NCBI GenBank assembly: GCA_903926385.1
Contig: CAIYIS010000059.1
Span: 124,001 to 188,000 of the forward strand
DNA length: 64,000 nt
Direction: 5' to 3'
DNA from: an uncultured Bacteroidota bacterium
GTDB lineage: Bacteria > Bacteroidota > Bacteroidia > 2-12-FULL-35-15
Part shown: positions 4,506 to 9,881 of the stretch, in pieces
How the letters are laid out: each line of letters opens with the position of its first letter
How positions within the stretch are numbered: the first letter of the stretch is position 1
Program-made: the position numbers and the translations under genes
The notes under the pieces: model-generated
Seen by the model: the letters and a program-made list of their open reading frames with translations, nothing else
What the model was told of the DNA's origin: nothing
Databases searched by the model: none

Positions 4506-4538
4506 AAATCCCCTTTCAGAAATGAGAGGGGATTTTTA
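4506..4538. terminator. Bidirectional terminator between convergent genes
   Basis: A 9-bp perfect stem (AAATCCCCT at 4506-4514 with AGGGGATTT at 4527-4535) is followed by T residues on the plus strand and by an AT-rich run on the minus strand. It serves gdhA and probably also the converging RCC1 gene, whose stop codon it abuts. Confidence 0.85.
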
Positions 4539-5984
4539 TTGGATTATAATCATCTTATTAAAACATTTCTTATCTAAATCTTCCAACTGAAGAAAGTAGA
4601 TTCCTCTCGTCCAATCCTGCCCAATTAAATCAAAACTCCATTCACCGGAATTAGCTTGAATAGGCTGATTTAATTTTTCATTCATAATTTCTCTTCCTAA
4701 AACGTCTTTTATTTTAATGGAATTAAATTTCCTGTTTCCTTTTACTGAAACAGTAGTTTCGGAAATAAAAGGGTTGGGATAAACAGTGATAAGCAATTCA
4801 TTCAAATTATTTTCATCAATACCCAACGGAGAACACCAATTAATAATTTGAACAGGAATCATTCTGCAATGACAACCAAACAAAACAACTGTACCATCCC
4901 CAATACCATGTTCATTGTTTCCCCAAGCTTGCACAGAGAAATTATTTTTCAAGGCTATGGAATGAGAAAAACCCGCATTTATTTCAGAAATCCCTGAAAT
5001 ATTTTGCACTGAGACAGGATAATTTTTATCCAGAAGTGAATTGTCACCTAATTGACTGAAGTCGTTATTCCCCCATGAACACATCGTAGAATCATTTTTT
5101 AGTGCAAGCGAATGATTGAATCCTGCAGAAATGGACATAATATTCACAAGGCCATTTAACTTTACAGGAAAGTATTTATCCGTAAGAGAACTGTCCCCCA
5201 ATTGTCCATTACTATTTCCTCCCCACACATAAATGGTTCCATCGCTTTTTAATGCTATTGAATGTGTGTTACCTGCTGAAATTGCAACGATGCCTGATAA
5301 TGCCCTTATTTGGACAGGTATACTACTATCTAATGTTGTACTGTCACCAAGCTGCCCATTATTGTTGCGCCCCCAAGCCCAAACTGTGCTATCGCTGCGA
5401 AGAGCAAGTGAATGAAAACCTCCACCGGCAATAGCAATTATATGAGTTAAATTACTAACTGGCACTGCCACAGGATTGCAATTGCATGCAACAAGATTAG
5501 TTGTACCATTTCCAAGTTGCCCGTATTGATTGTATCCCCAATCCCAAACTGTACTGTCACTTTTTAATGCAAGGCAATGATTTTGTCCGCTTGCAATAGC
5601 CTTCACATTATTAAGGTTAAAAACTTGCACGGGGACTGAACTGTTAATATAATAACCCGTTCCCAATTGGCCATTAAAATTATTTCCCCAAGACCATACG
5701 GTACCATTGCTTTTGAGAGCCAATGCATGCCATTCTCCAGCATCCACAGCACTTATCCCACTTAGCCCAGGAATCTGTTCAGGAGCATGTCTATCAAAAG
5801 TGTCAGCTAATCCTAGTTGACCATAATAATTATATCCCCATGATTTCACAGTACTGTCGAGACATATAGACAATGTGAAATTTGAGCCGGCTGCTATTGT
5901 TTGAGAAAATGCAGAATGGCTATATAAAGAAAAAAGTAGAAACAGAGTAATAAAGTGTGAAATCCGTATTATTTTCATAAACAT
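4536..5984 (-). CDS. Secreted RCC1-repeat protein with T9SS type A sorting domain
   Basis: A 482-residue secreted protein. Residues 1-28 form a signal peptide ending in SAFSQ. Seven RCC1-type blades follow, each with a signature such as VWSWGNNFNGQLG (about every 50 residues up to residue 380), so a complete seven-bladed propeller is expected. The last 80 residues are a type A T9SS sorting domain (VYPNPFISETTV, VLGREI, RGIYFLQLED). Partner and function are unknown; the propeller suggests binding, not catalysis. A perfect -7 box lies only 7 bases upstream, so either the mRNA is leaderless or translation begins at Met3 (5978). It converges on gdhA across a shared terminator. Confidence 0.88.
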   Translation of the reverse strand: MFMKIIRISHFITLFLLFSLYSHSAFSQTIAAGSNFTLSICLDSTVKSWGYNYYGQLGLADTFDRHAPEQIPGLSGISAVDAGEWHALALKSNGTVWSWGNNFNGQLGTGYYINSSVPVQVFNLNNVKAIASGQNHCLALKSDSTVWDWGYNQYGQLGNGTTNLVACNCNPVAVPVSNLTHIIAIAGGGFHSLALRSDSTVWAWGRNNNGQLGDSTTLDSSIPVQIRALSGIVAISAGNTHSIALKSDGTIYVWGGNSNGQLGDSSLTDKYFPVKLNGLVNIMSISAGFNHSLALKNDSTMCSWGNNDFSQLGDNSLLDKNYPVSVQNISGISEINAGFSHSIALKNNFSVQAWGNNEHGIGDGTVVLFGCHCRMIPVQIINWCSPLGIDENNLNELLITVYPNPFISETTVSVKGNRKFNSIKIKDVLGREIMNEKLNQPIQANSGEWSFDLIGQDWTRGIYFLQLEDLDKKCFNKMIIIQ

Positions 5985-6175: not shown

Positions 6176-6183
6176 TATATTTG
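6176..6183 (+). promoter_or_regulatory. -7 box for the alpha-CTD-like gene
   Basis: TATATTTG, a perfect TAnnTTTG, ends 17 bases before the start codon. The predicted transcript would begin only about 10 bases before the ATG. Confidence 0.6.
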
Positions 6184-6199: not shown

Positions 6200-6877
6200 A
6201 TGCAGACTGAAGTAAAAAAGCTAATGGAGTCCTTAACGGAATTAAAAGAGCAACTAGAGGGCATAAAACAGGATTTAAAAGATATTCATTTGAATATTTA
6301 CAAGATTGAAAATTATATTAATGAAAAGGAAAAATATAATTTAATGCACGATGAAAAGGTTAGTAAGCGAATAAAAGAATGGATTTATACTCATCCAGAT
6401 TCAGAAATGATAAACGCTCACGATTATAATATCTACAAAAAGTTAGTTATTGAAAAAGCTGACATTTTAAAAATCTCGAAAGATTACAAATTATCGAAAC
6501 TGGACATTCGCTCCATTTTGATGAAGACTACGGAGGTAATTAATGAAATACTCAAAAAGCATGAAAGTGAAGAAGGATTTCAACGATTGAAGACAAGTTT
6601 TCTGCCCCCATTCGATTTTAATAAGATTGTTATACCAACTGATAATAAAGGGCGTTCGGCATCAATAGAAAATCTATATAAAAAAACTTCTGATTTTTAT
6701 TTTTCTGCCAGAGCTGTAAATAGTATTGTTGCTATGGATTGCGTGTATATTGGTGATATTGTACTTTACGGTCATGAAATAAAAAGGTTACCTTATGTGG
6801 GGAAAAAGACTATTGTAGAAATCGAAAAGGTGCTTACAAGTTTAGGCCTCAAGTTTCTTCACGATATCAATTACTGA
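6200..6877 (+). CDS. Orphan protein with coiled coil, helical middle and RNA polymerase alpha-CTD-like domain
   Basis: 225 residues, not a standard transcription subunit. Residues 1-45 look like an amphipathic coiled coil (EVKKLMESLTELKEQLEGIK). Residues 80-120 are helical and could be a helix-turn-helix. Residues 165-222 align by eye with the C-terminal domain of RNA polymerase alpha: SARAVNS, VYIGDIV, LPYVGKKTIVEIEKVL, SLGL. The positions matching the E. coli UP-element contacts R265, N268, G296 and K298 are R171, N174, G201 and K203; S299 corresponds to T204. DNA binding is therefore plausible, as a regulator or phage-like modifier of transcription, but this is inference. The gene stands alone with its own promoter. 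The start ATG overlaps a preceding ATG-TAA. Confidence 0.75.
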   Translation: MQTEVKKLMESLTELKEQLEGIKQDLKDIHLNIYKIENYINEKEKYNLMHDEKVSKRIKEWIYTHPDSEMINAHDYNIYKKLVIEKADILKISKDYKLSKLDIRSILMKTTEVINEILKKHESEEGFQRLKTSFLPPFDFNKIVIPTDNKGRSASIENLYKKTSDFYFSARAVNSIVAMDCVYIGDIVLYGHEIKRLPYVGKKTIVEIEKVLTSLGLKFLHDINY

Positions 6878-6961: not shown

Positions 6962-6969
6962 TAATTTTG
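6962..6969 (+). promoter_or_regulatory. -7 box for the SprB/PKD gene
   Basis: TAATTTTG, a perfect TAnnTTTG, 95 bases upstream of the GTG start. No matching -33 element is seen. Confidence 0.5.
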
Positions 6970-7064: not shown

Positions 7065-9881
7065 GTGGTCAACCCAATAAAAATTATTTTCCTTTTTCTA
7101 ATTGCAGCTTCATTGAATGCCTCTGCACAATGCGGTACTGTTATTTCATCATTTCCATATTCAGAAGGTTTTGAAACTTCGGCTGCATGGACAACCGGAG
7201 GTGCAAACAATGACTGGGCATGGGGAACTCCTGCACATCCCACTGTAAATTCTGCCGGTGGTGGTGTTAAATGCTGGATGGCAGGAGGGCTAACCGGCTC
7301 ATTTTACAACACCTCCGAACTTGCTTGGATAATGAGCCCATGTTTTGATTTTACTTCACTAAACTACCCTTGGATTTCCTTCAAAATATTTTGGGAATGT
7401 GAATATCATTATGACGGACTTGTGCTGCAATATACATTGAACGGAGGAACATCGTGGACCAATGTTGGGGCTTATGGAGATGCGGTAGATTGTTTAAATG
7501 ATAACTGGTACGATTATGCAAACATTCAATGGCTACTAACAAGTGCTGTACCCAGAAATGGCTGGACAGGGCGCACGGGTGCAACTGCTGGTACATGCCA
7601 AGGAGGAAATGGAAGTTTAGGGTGGTTAACCGCCAAACATTGTATGTCTGCATTGGCAAATCAGCCAAGTGTTCGTTTTCGATTTTTGTTTGGAGCAGGA
7701 ACAACCTGCAATAATTATGACGGAATAGCAGTAGATGATATTTTAATAAGTGACGCACCTGCAAATGTGGCTAACTTTACATATGCCTGTGCCGGTGCAA
7801 ATACAGTTAATTTTACAAACACCTCTTTACTTTGCCCAACAGGTTATCTTTGGGATTTTGGTGATGGAGCGACATCCACTACAACAAACCCAAGTCATAC
7901 CTATGCTGCACCCGGAACCTATAATGTAACGCTGACTTCAAGCGGTCCATGTAATGCACCGGGTTCTGTTACCATCCCAGTCTACATTTTAGGTGCAACC
8001 ACCACATCGACTAATGTTTTGTGCGGAACAGTAAATACAGGTACTGCAACAGTGATTGCTACCGGAAATTCAGGGCCATTCGTTTACAGCTGGTCACCAG
8101 GAGGACAAACCACGGCAACGGCTACTGCTCTAGCGAGTGGCACCTATACAGTAACGGTTTCTGCAACTAATAGTTGTTCTGCTTCGGCCACGGCAGTAGT
8201 AAACTTATCAGCGGCACTAAATGTATCAGCGTCATCAACTGCAGTTAATTGTTTTGGCGGATCAGATGGAACGGTTACTGCTGTTGCATCTAACGGAGTA
8301 ATTCCATATACTTACTTATGGACGGGAGGAGGAAATTCCGCAACTTATGCAAATCTTACTTCAGGTAATTATTCAGTAACAGTGACAGATTTGAATGGAT
8401 GCACAGGTACAGCTTCCACAACGGTATTGCAACCTTTAACAGCACTATCCGTTTCGGCCAATTCAACTCCCGTTAGTTGCTTTGGTGGGAGTAACGGTTC
8501 TGTTATTGCAACTGCCTCAGGCGGCACGGCTCCTTACACTTACATGTGGACCGGAGGACCAGCTTCTGCAGTTTATAGCAATATTGCAGCCGGAACATAC
8601 ACAGCAACCGCAATAGATTTTAATGGATGTACTGCCAATGTAAACGCCACGGTAACTCAACCATCATCCGCTTTGTCAGTCACTGCGACAGCGGTTCCCG
8701 TAGGCTGCTATGGTGGTAGCAACGGTTCTGCCACTGCTGTTGTTTCAGGAGGAAGTTCTCCATATACATATTCCTGGGCAATCGGAGGTGCTTTTACAGC
8801 CACTGCATCTGGACTAACTATGGGGACATACACTGTAACGGTAACAGATATTAATTTGTGTACTACCAATACAACCGCAATTGTTACACAACCTAACGCA
8901 CCAGTGACAGCCAATACAACAACAACTCAAGCGTTATGCGCATTAAGTAATGGAACAGCCACCGTAAATGCCTCGGGCGGCACATCGCCATACACCTATT
9001 CTTGGGCGCCTTCAGGTGGAACAGGGATGATAGCAGCAGCCTTAGGAGTTGGTACGTATACAGTCACCGTAACTGATTTTAATAATTGTACGGTAACCTC
9101 TGCAGCAAATATCACCAGCAATGGAAATATAGTTGCAACCATATTGTCCACTCCAATTAATTGCAATGGGGAATCCAATGGAGCTGCAAGTGCAAGTGCG
9201 ACCGGTGGAGCAAGTCCATATTCATTCTTGTGGAGTACCGGAACTGCCAATGCAACCGTTAGTAATTTGAGTCCGGGTAATTACTGTGTTACTGCTGTTG
9301 ATGCAAACGGATGTAGCGACACAGCTTGTATTGATCTATTTAATCCATCTCCCGTAATAGCTGGTTTTACAAGTAATCCAACAGTTACCGGTATAGATAA
9401 CCCTGATATTTATTTTTATGATAATTCTCAAGGAGCAGCTCTATGGCAATGGGACTTTGGAGACAATTCCGGTTCAACAGGTTGCAACCCCAATCATGAC
9501 TATACAATTCCAGGAACGTATCCGGTGACTCTAATTGTAACTAATAATCATGGTTGCCAGGATTCGGTGACTCATTATATAACTATCAATAGTGAATTTA
9601 CTTTTTATGCTCCTACTGCGTTTTCACCAAATAGTAATGAAATCAATGATATTTTTTTACCTAAAGGAACCGGTTGGGATAATTCTTCCTTTGAAATGTC
9701 TATATACGACAGATGGGGAAATATGGTTTTTAATACCACAGACCCTTTAAGGGGTTGGGATGGTAAATCGAATGGAGGAAATGCAATTTCCCAGATTGAT
9801 GTGTATGTATGGAAAGTGAAACTTTCTGAACTATCCGGAAAGGGGCATCGCTTTATGGGTTCGGTTACAATCTTGAGATAA
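7065..9881 (+). CDS. Secreted SprB-repeat/PKD protein with T9SS type B sorting domain
   Basis: A 938-residue surface protein. The signal peptide ends ASLNASAQ at residue 22. Residues 24-232 form a cysteine-containing MAM-like or jelly-roll region with WIMSPCFDF and DDILISD. A PKD domain (WDFGDGATS, HTYAAPGTYNVTL) lies at about 235-310, six SprB-type repeats at 311-760 (such as CFGGSDGTVTA with SYSW/YTYLW and GTYTVTVTD), a second PKD domain (WDFGDNSG) at 765-845, and a type B (gliding-associated) sorting domain at 848-938 (FSPNSNEIND, YDRWGNMVF, GWDGKSNG). Related proteins act in adhesion or gliding; no enzyme domain is visible. The GTG start is forced by an in-frame TAA at 7053. Confidence 0.9.
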   Translation: MVNPIKIIFLFLIAASLNASAQCGTVISSFPYSEGFETSAAWTTGGANNDWAWGTPAHPTVNSAGGGVKCWMAGGLTGSFYNTSELAWIMSPCFDFTSLNYPWISFKIFWECEYHYDGLVLQYTLNGGTSWTNVGAYGDAVDCLNDNWYDYANIQWLLTSAVPRNGWTGRTGATAGTCQGGNGSLGWLTAKHCMSALANQPSVRFRFLFGAGTTCNNYDGIAVDDILISDAPANVANFTYACAGANTVNFTNTSLLCPTGYLWDFGDGATSTTTNPSHTYAAPGTYNVTLTSSGPCNAPGSVTIPVYILGATTTSTNVLCGTVNTGTATVIATGNSGPFVYSWSPGGQTTATATALASGTYTVTVSATNSCSASATAVVNLSAALNVSASSTAVNCFGGSDGTVTAVASNGVIPYTYLWTGGGNSATYANLTSGNYSVTVTDLNGCTGTASTTVLQPLTALSVSANSTPVSCFGGSNGSVIATASGGTAPYTYMWTGGPASAVYSNIAAGTYTATAIDFNGCTANVNATVTQPSSALSVTATAVPVGCYGGSNGSATAVVSGGSSPYTYSWAIGGAFTATASGLTMGTYTVTVTDINLCTTNTTAIVTQPNAPVTANTTTTQALCALSNGTATVNASGGTSPYTYSWAPSGGTGMIAAALGVGTYTVTVTDFNNCTVTSAANITSNGNIVATILSTPINCNGESNGAASASATGGASPYSFLWSTGTANATVSNLSPGNYCVTAVDANGCSDTACIDLFNPSPVIAGFTSNPTVTGIDNPDIYFYDNSQGAALWQWDFGDNSGSTGCNPNHDYTIPGTYPVTLIVTNNHGCQDSVTHYITINSEFTFYAPTAFSPNSNEINDIFLPKGTGWDNSSFEMSIYDRWGNMVFNTTDPLRGWDGKSNGGNAISQIDVYVWKVKLSELSGKGHRFMGSVTILR
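7990..9345 (+). repeat. Six SprB-type protein repeats
   Basis: Six imperfect repeats of about 75 codons inside the preceding gene. Each opens with a cysteine-glycine block (NCFGG, SCFGG, GCYGG and variants) and ends with TYTVTVTD or a close variant. Confidence 0.8.

Follow-up and report, generated by a model that had tools for sequence, protein, structure and literature searches.

The gene and its surroundings

The window, that is, the whole stretch of 64,000 nucleotides that was analysed, belongs to a genome assembly of 85 contigs and 4.27 Mb, which its genes and its relatives suggest to be from Bacteroidota. At 6200..6877 on the + strand it contains an open reading frame that opens with ATG and whose product, a protein of 225 aa, we call P0001. 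According to its Pfam and NCBIfam matches and an AlphaFold2 model, P0001 is composed of a probable coiled coil, a helix-turn-helix (HTH) resembling sigma region 4, a linker, and the C-terminal domain of the RNA polymerase alpha subunit (alpha-CTD). The gene has intergenic DNA on both sides. Beyond it lie, on one side and on the opposite strand, a gene for an RCC1-repeat protein (window 4536-5984, - strand) and, on the other, a gene for a long protein whose repeats are PKD-like and SprB-like (7065-9881, + strand). Both of these neighbours look like secreted proteins that bear a C-terminal sorting tail.

Upstream of the gene, at 6176..6183 (+ strand), stands TATATTTG, which matches the Bacteroidota -7 promoter pattern TAnnTTTG; it begins 24 bases and ends 16 bases before the ATG. 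A match to this pattern is weak evidence, and the pattern occurs at 42 sites on the + strand of the window, or 0.66 per kb. With intergenic DNA to either side and the TAnnTTTG match upstream, the gene is probably a single-gene transcription unit. A further TAnnTTTG site is found at 6962-6969, about 100 bases ahead of the long repeat protein gene.

The C-terminal domain

The alpha-CTD occupies residues 156-221 (6665..6862, + strand). The Pfam model PF03118 (RNA_pol_A_CTD) matches residues 157-213 with an E-value of 3.2e-5 and 24.0 bits, which against a cut-off of 23.8 is marginal when taken alone. The rpoA models of NCBIfam reach E-values down to 1.4e-10, covering the CTD part only and scoring far below their own cut-offs, and the top matches among PDB sequences are RNA polymerase alpha chains (1.5e-5). 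When a profile is built from the CTDs of the other fusion proteins, excluding P0001, it detects P0001 at E 1.4e-8, compared with 0.86 for the best score among 1000 shuffles and all other ORFs of the window.

The fold gives the same answer. Our AlphaFold2 model, computed from an alignment of 18 sequences, has a mean pLDDT of 79.9 and a pLDDT of 82-96 across residues 151-220; a single-sequence model (mean pLDDT 42.8) was discarded. The leading Foldseek rows are all RNA polymerase alpha. VIA-align superposes the domain on 1z3e_B with Z 11.8 and an rmsd of 1.4 over 66 residues, and on 1lb2_E with Z 10.6; overall, the alpha-CTD matches have Z 10-11.8 over 63-69 residues.

When P0001 is aligned to E. 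coli alpha, five contact residues are identical: R171 (6710..6712, + strand) corresponds to R265, N174 to N268, G201 to G296, K203 to K298, and E207 to E302. The last three fall in the stretch G201-K202-K203-T204...E207 (6800..6820, + strand), the counterpart of E. coli G296-K297-K298-S299...E302. Two changes are conservative (C269 to S175 and S299 to T204), and two are departures: N294 is replaced by Y199, the sole residue other than N among the 18 aligned rows, and E261 by Y167. Across those rows G296 is kept in 18/18, R265 in 17/18, N268 and E302 in 16/18 each, and K298 in 15/18. For residues other than Arg265 we assume the contact roles that are generally attributed to them in alpha-CTDs. 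Arg265 itself is crucial to contact with the UP element (PMC2988021). Thus, by sequence and by model, the C-terminus of P0001 is a genuine alpha-CTD with its main contact residues retained.

An earlier note on this DNA had placed an alpha-CTD fold at residues 165-222 and listed R171, N174, G201 and K203 as retained. The fold is borne out by the sequence matches, the left-out profile and the structural matches, and the four residues align exactly, with E207 as a fifth; the proposed boundary was slightly short on its N side, the domain starting at about residue 156.

The remaining parts of the chain

Residues 2-48 (6203..6343, + strand) form one long helix in the AlphaFold2 model, with a pLDDT of 91-96 for residues 1-30. 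With weak Pfam matches of the coiled-coil type, this helix is a probable coiled coil, in agreement with the earlier note. Matches of P0001 in PHROGs, which are weak and of coiled-coil or terminase-like type (best E 0.008), were dismissed. A linker at residues 122-155 (6563..6664, + strand) is modelled partly with low confidence (pLDDT 49-65 over most of it), and it is shared with a protein of another genome, G013, described below.

Between coil and linker, residues 69-121 (6404..6562, + strand) form a helix-turn-helix, which had been suspected before; the model places its helices at 73-84, 89-96 and 100-121, the final one long. What we add is its likeness to sigma region 4 (sigma4). Over residues 50-124, VIA-align gives Z 7.7 to each of SigR region 4 (5fgm), SigL (6dv9), SigF (8jzt) and SigD4 (3vep), a value in the range that the method regards as possibly generic. 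A sigma4 profile of the relatives scores P0001 at 11.5 bits (E 0.013) in the expected register, residues 76-119, with 1 of 1000 shuffles scoring above it, and the HTH of P0001 lies in register with its relatives in the alignment. The hhalign probability for sigma4 is 14, and a Pfam search of P0001 returns no Sigma70_r4 match. The alignment behind the model took in relatives with a clear sigma4, which lends strength to the model of this HTH. At the positions that contact the -35 element in E. coli sigma70 (R584, E585, R586, R588 and Q589), P0001 has K, L, D, R and S, respectively; a phage relative described below, L140, keeps all five. Because the sequence signal is marginal, the Z-score possibly generic, the model alignment enriched by sigma4 relatives and the -35 contact residues mostly changed, we call residues 69-121 sigma4-like on the strength of the model, rather than a proven sigma4.

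Neither Pfam nor NCBIfam finds an alpha N-terminal domain (alpha-NTD) family in P0001, as the earlier note had also held, and neither finds Sigma70_r2. A separate, complete RpoA is encoded on another contig of the same genome, in an open frame of 332 aa whose CTD matches at E 3.8e-21. Lacking both alpha-NTD and sigma region 2, in a genome that encodes RpoA elsewhere, P0001 can be neither an alpha subunit nor a sigma factor as these are usually understood.

Relatives in cellular genomes

Within the genus, genome G027 encodes a full-length relative, P0002, with 26% identity over residues 23-219 of P0001 (E 1.4e-7). P0002 exceeds the cut-offs of both Sigma70_r4 (27.0 bits) and RNA_pol_A_CTD (57 bits); with the N-terminal part of P0001 alone it has no significant match. 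Its neighbourhood contains genes for an endolysin-like glucosaminidase, a very large helicase and a phage-type ATPase. The closest relative of P0001 in linker and CTD is P0003 (G013, with a fragment in G011), which consists of coil, linker and CTD without the HTH and is 38% identical over 103 residues (E 1.5e-19). Genome G219 has two members of 317-335 aa, P0005 and P0007, each with an extra HTH_17 and with sigma4 and CTD both above cut-off. In P0004 and P0006 (from G190 and a second locus of G027), sigma4 is below cut-off or undetected. In G219, the loci L071 and L074 hold paralogues of the order HTH_17, sigma4, coil, alpha-CTD, each with a gene for a similar protein of about 240-260 aa within a few kb. 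A match in G005 was rejected for its six stops, and most class-wide matches of CTD-containing queries were set aside as host rpoA.

Relatives on phages and plasmids

Altogether, nine sequence-distinct relatives on phage contigs, on a conjugative plasmid and in Bacteroidota genomes exceed the curated thresholds of Sigma70_r4 as well as those of RNA_pol_A_CTD: P0002, P0005, P0007, L140, L119, L116, L128, L137 and L105. In these relatives the two modules are usually linked by a coiled coil. The viral contigs of IMG/VR contribute several forms. L119/L107 encode 332 aa with HTH_17, sigma4, coil and CTD; L116-L118 encode 303 aa, L122/L125/L128-L135 about 300 aa, and L137 191 aa. L140 encodes 286 aa with an XRE-type HTH, sigma4 (67.7 bits), coil and CTD (72.4 bits), and its RERIRQ motif is intact. 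L105, of 294 aa, lies on a mobilizable/conjugative Chryseobacterium plasmid and scores 30.0 bits for Sigma70_r4 and 56.3 bits for the CTD; its RefSeq name mentions the CTD only.

Where the surroundings of these genes were read, they resemble those of phage genes. On L137 (IMGVR_UViG_3300017569_000071) the gene at 4650-5222 stands between NinB and NinG and beside genes for Sak4 and SSB, that is, in a replication/recombination cluster. Lambda-like phages often keep regulators of late genes in the NinB-NinG region. The L140 gene has a replicative helicase gene on one side and a gene for a DNA methyltransferase on the other, and the L122 gene adjoins a DNA helicase gene.

Phage contigs also encode proteins that are nearly bare alpha-CTDs: L120:2429-2746, in which a membrane helix appears to precede the domain, L124:4983-5225, L127:4359-4559, L121:66-407 and L141:4833-5165, the last four being 67-114 aa in size. 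In Bacillus phage vB_BmeM-Goe8, L106:1959-2591 is annotated 'RNA polymerase subunit alpha' and consists of an unrelated N-terminal region followed by an alpha-CTD (78 bits); this protein is not an alpha subunit. Three fecal 'Bacteriophage sp.' scaffolds, L108, L109 and L111 (MT837142, MT835508 and MT839982), carry a bacterial-type rpoA (a fragment in L111) and were not counted; they are probably bacterial sequences that ended up in a phage collection.

P0001, which the earlier note had called an orphan, is no lone oddity: we place it, as a probable and divergent member, in a wider class found mainly on mobile elements. Its membership in this class of sigma4-alpha-CTD fusions is qualified, in that the CTD is present by sequence and by model while the likeness to sigma4 appears in structure and register only.

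Distribution and origin of the gene

The search for the distribution of the gene, which the earlier note had proposed, thus recovered relatives of the class; it did not recover close relatives of P0001 itself. Among 395 sampled genomes of the bacterial class, 4/395 match P0001 at 1e-5, two of these solely through frames of rpoA length. No close relatives appear among 84,980 species genomes, and a scan of IMG/VR viral contigs with P0001 as the single query found none, nor did the phage and plasmid collections. Scans of viral contigs with P0002 and P0005 as single queries likewise yielded no relatives. A query with the N-terminal part of L107 alone, run without a positive control, matched nothing in the 395 genomes.

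The G+C content of the gene is 30.8%, compared with 37.6% for the window, at about the 3rd percentile. Within its genus the gene occurs sporadically, and sister genomes do not conserve the gdh-pheT neighbourhood. These three features fit a horizontal arrival of the gene without proving it. The flanks hold housekeeping or surface-protein genes and nothing mobile, and around the gene we found neither an integrase nor a repeat boundary. We regard P0001 as a diverged copy, now chromosomal and with no close relatives in these searches, whose ultimate source would be a mobile element.

Function and alternative explanations

In the holoenzyme, sigma region 4 sits on the -35 element while the alpha-CTDs sit on A/T-rich UP DNA at -40 to -60 (PMC2988021). 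One of the structural matches, PDB 3n97, shows by its title an alpha-CTD together with sigma region 4, both bound to UP/-35 DNA. We consider it fairly likely that P0001 is a two-headed regulator that binds promoter DNA as a coiled-coil dimer. The alpha-CTD (residues 156-221) would dock on an UP-like, A/T-rich minor groove through R171, N174, G201, K203 and E207, the sigma4-like HTH (69-121) would bind an adjoining major-groove site or a protein partner, and the N-terminal coiled coil would dimerise the chain. Since both alpha-NTD and sigma region 2 are missing, P0001 cannot enter core polymerase as a subunit and would therefore act from the DNA, filling the stretch normally held by sigma4 and alpha-CTD. 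By occupying the promoter it might either tether host polymerase and so steer it, or exclude it and so block transcription. The earlier note's proposal, that the protein could compete with polymerase or recruit it at UP-like sites, is likewise a conjecture. Phage relatives with RERxRQ could plausibly target ordinary -35-like DNA. P0001 has mostly lost the -35 contact residues; its HTH would therefore recognise sites other than ordinary -35 elements, or bind a protein, while its CTD probably still binds A/T-rich DNA. The class as a whole, located mainly on phages and plasmids, most likely switches genes of the elements that carry it.

Conserved CTD residues need not imply that P0001 binds DNA, since alpha-CTDs also dock proteins, and complexes with Spx and CAP are among the best structural matches. 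The departures at Y199 and Y167 also speak against DNA binding by this copy. P0001 could instead be a decoy, that is, an alpha-CTD mimic that titrates sigma or the activators that bind alpha-CTD; the small phage proteins of L124, L127, L121 and L141 show that little but an alpha-CTD can be encoded. We nevertheless judge such a decoy unlikely: the class is most strongly conserved at its DNA-contact residues, E261, which lies beside the sigma contact surface, varies, and most relatives carry a second domain of a DNA-binding type. There is a smaller chance that P0001 is left over from a mobile element and is now decaying or neutral, its gene intact but no longer under selection. The degenerate HTH and the G+C contrast with the window would suit a remnant, as would the lack of close relatives in all the genome, viral, phage and plasmid collections searched. 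Yet the frame is fully open, the core residues of the CTD are kept, a promoter-like site stands just upstream, and P0003 in the genus remains similar over linker and CTD.

The outcome that the earlier note named as refuting its proposal, a generic helix-hairpin-helix protein of another family that merely resembles alpha-CTD, was looked for and is absent. The alpha-CTD fold is itself of helix-hairpin-helix type, and PF14716 (HHH_8) does match residues 191-213, but only at E 0.19; the matches to alpha-CTD models are better by orders of magnitude, structural comparison returns alpha-CTDs over 63-69 residues, and the contact residues specific to polymerase are present. This explanation is already contradicted, and we give it almost no credence.

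A broader proposal we can offer only tentatively. Bacteroidota phages and plasmids, at least, may commonly encode chains that join sigma4 (for -35) to alpha-CTD (for UP) without the core-binding parts, marking or masking promoters in order to seize host polymerase, with P0001 a chromosomally settled and re-specialised version. If this is true, mobile elements have made transcription factors out of the two upstream-promoter readers of RNA polymerase, and there is a route of promoter takeover distinct from sigma appropriation by T4 or from phage sigma factors. P0001 would also offer a compact protein for probing what sigma4 and alpha-CTD do on DNA by themselves.

Comparison with known systems

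Proteins with an orphan alpha-CTD are already known to automatic annotation, and the domain is not of a new kind. We found no description of the sigma4 and alpha-CTD fusion class among open-licence papers. With the CTD of RpoA (PF03118), P0001 shares the fold and the equivalents of R265/N268/G296/K298/E302; it differs from RpoA in lacking the alpha-NTD and in coexisting with a complete RpoA in its own genome. Its HTH has the same shape as sigma-70 region 4 (PF04545 / PF08281), which the nine relatives match clearly in Pfam, but unlike sigma-70 factors P0001 has no sigma region 2 or 3, has mostly changed -35 contacts, and shows no Pfam match to region 4.

The RefSeq protein WP_124785686.1 (Chryseobacterium plasmid NZ_CP034172, 294 aa), named 'DNA-directed RNA polymerase subunit alpha C-terminal domain-containing protein', has the same order of N-terminal part, sigma4 and alpha-CTD; it differs from P0001 in being plasmid-borne, in having its sigma4 above the Pfam cut-off, and in an extra N-terminal region. 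Orphan alpha-CTDs of phages (Goe8 QDP42789.1; the 'RNA polymerase, alpha subunit, C-terminal' of uncultured Caudovirales in BFVD; Rhodococcus phage Finch) likewise lack the alpha-NTD, but in the Goe8 protein and the small phage alpha-CTD proteins we detect no sigma4, in contrast to the fusion class. Finally, AsiA/MotA of T4 are another case of a mobile element interfering in the promoter region of sigma4, -35 and UP; these, however, are unrelated proteins, and T4 remodels the host's sigma4 rather than encoding a fusion of sigma4 with alpha-CTD (PMC2988021).
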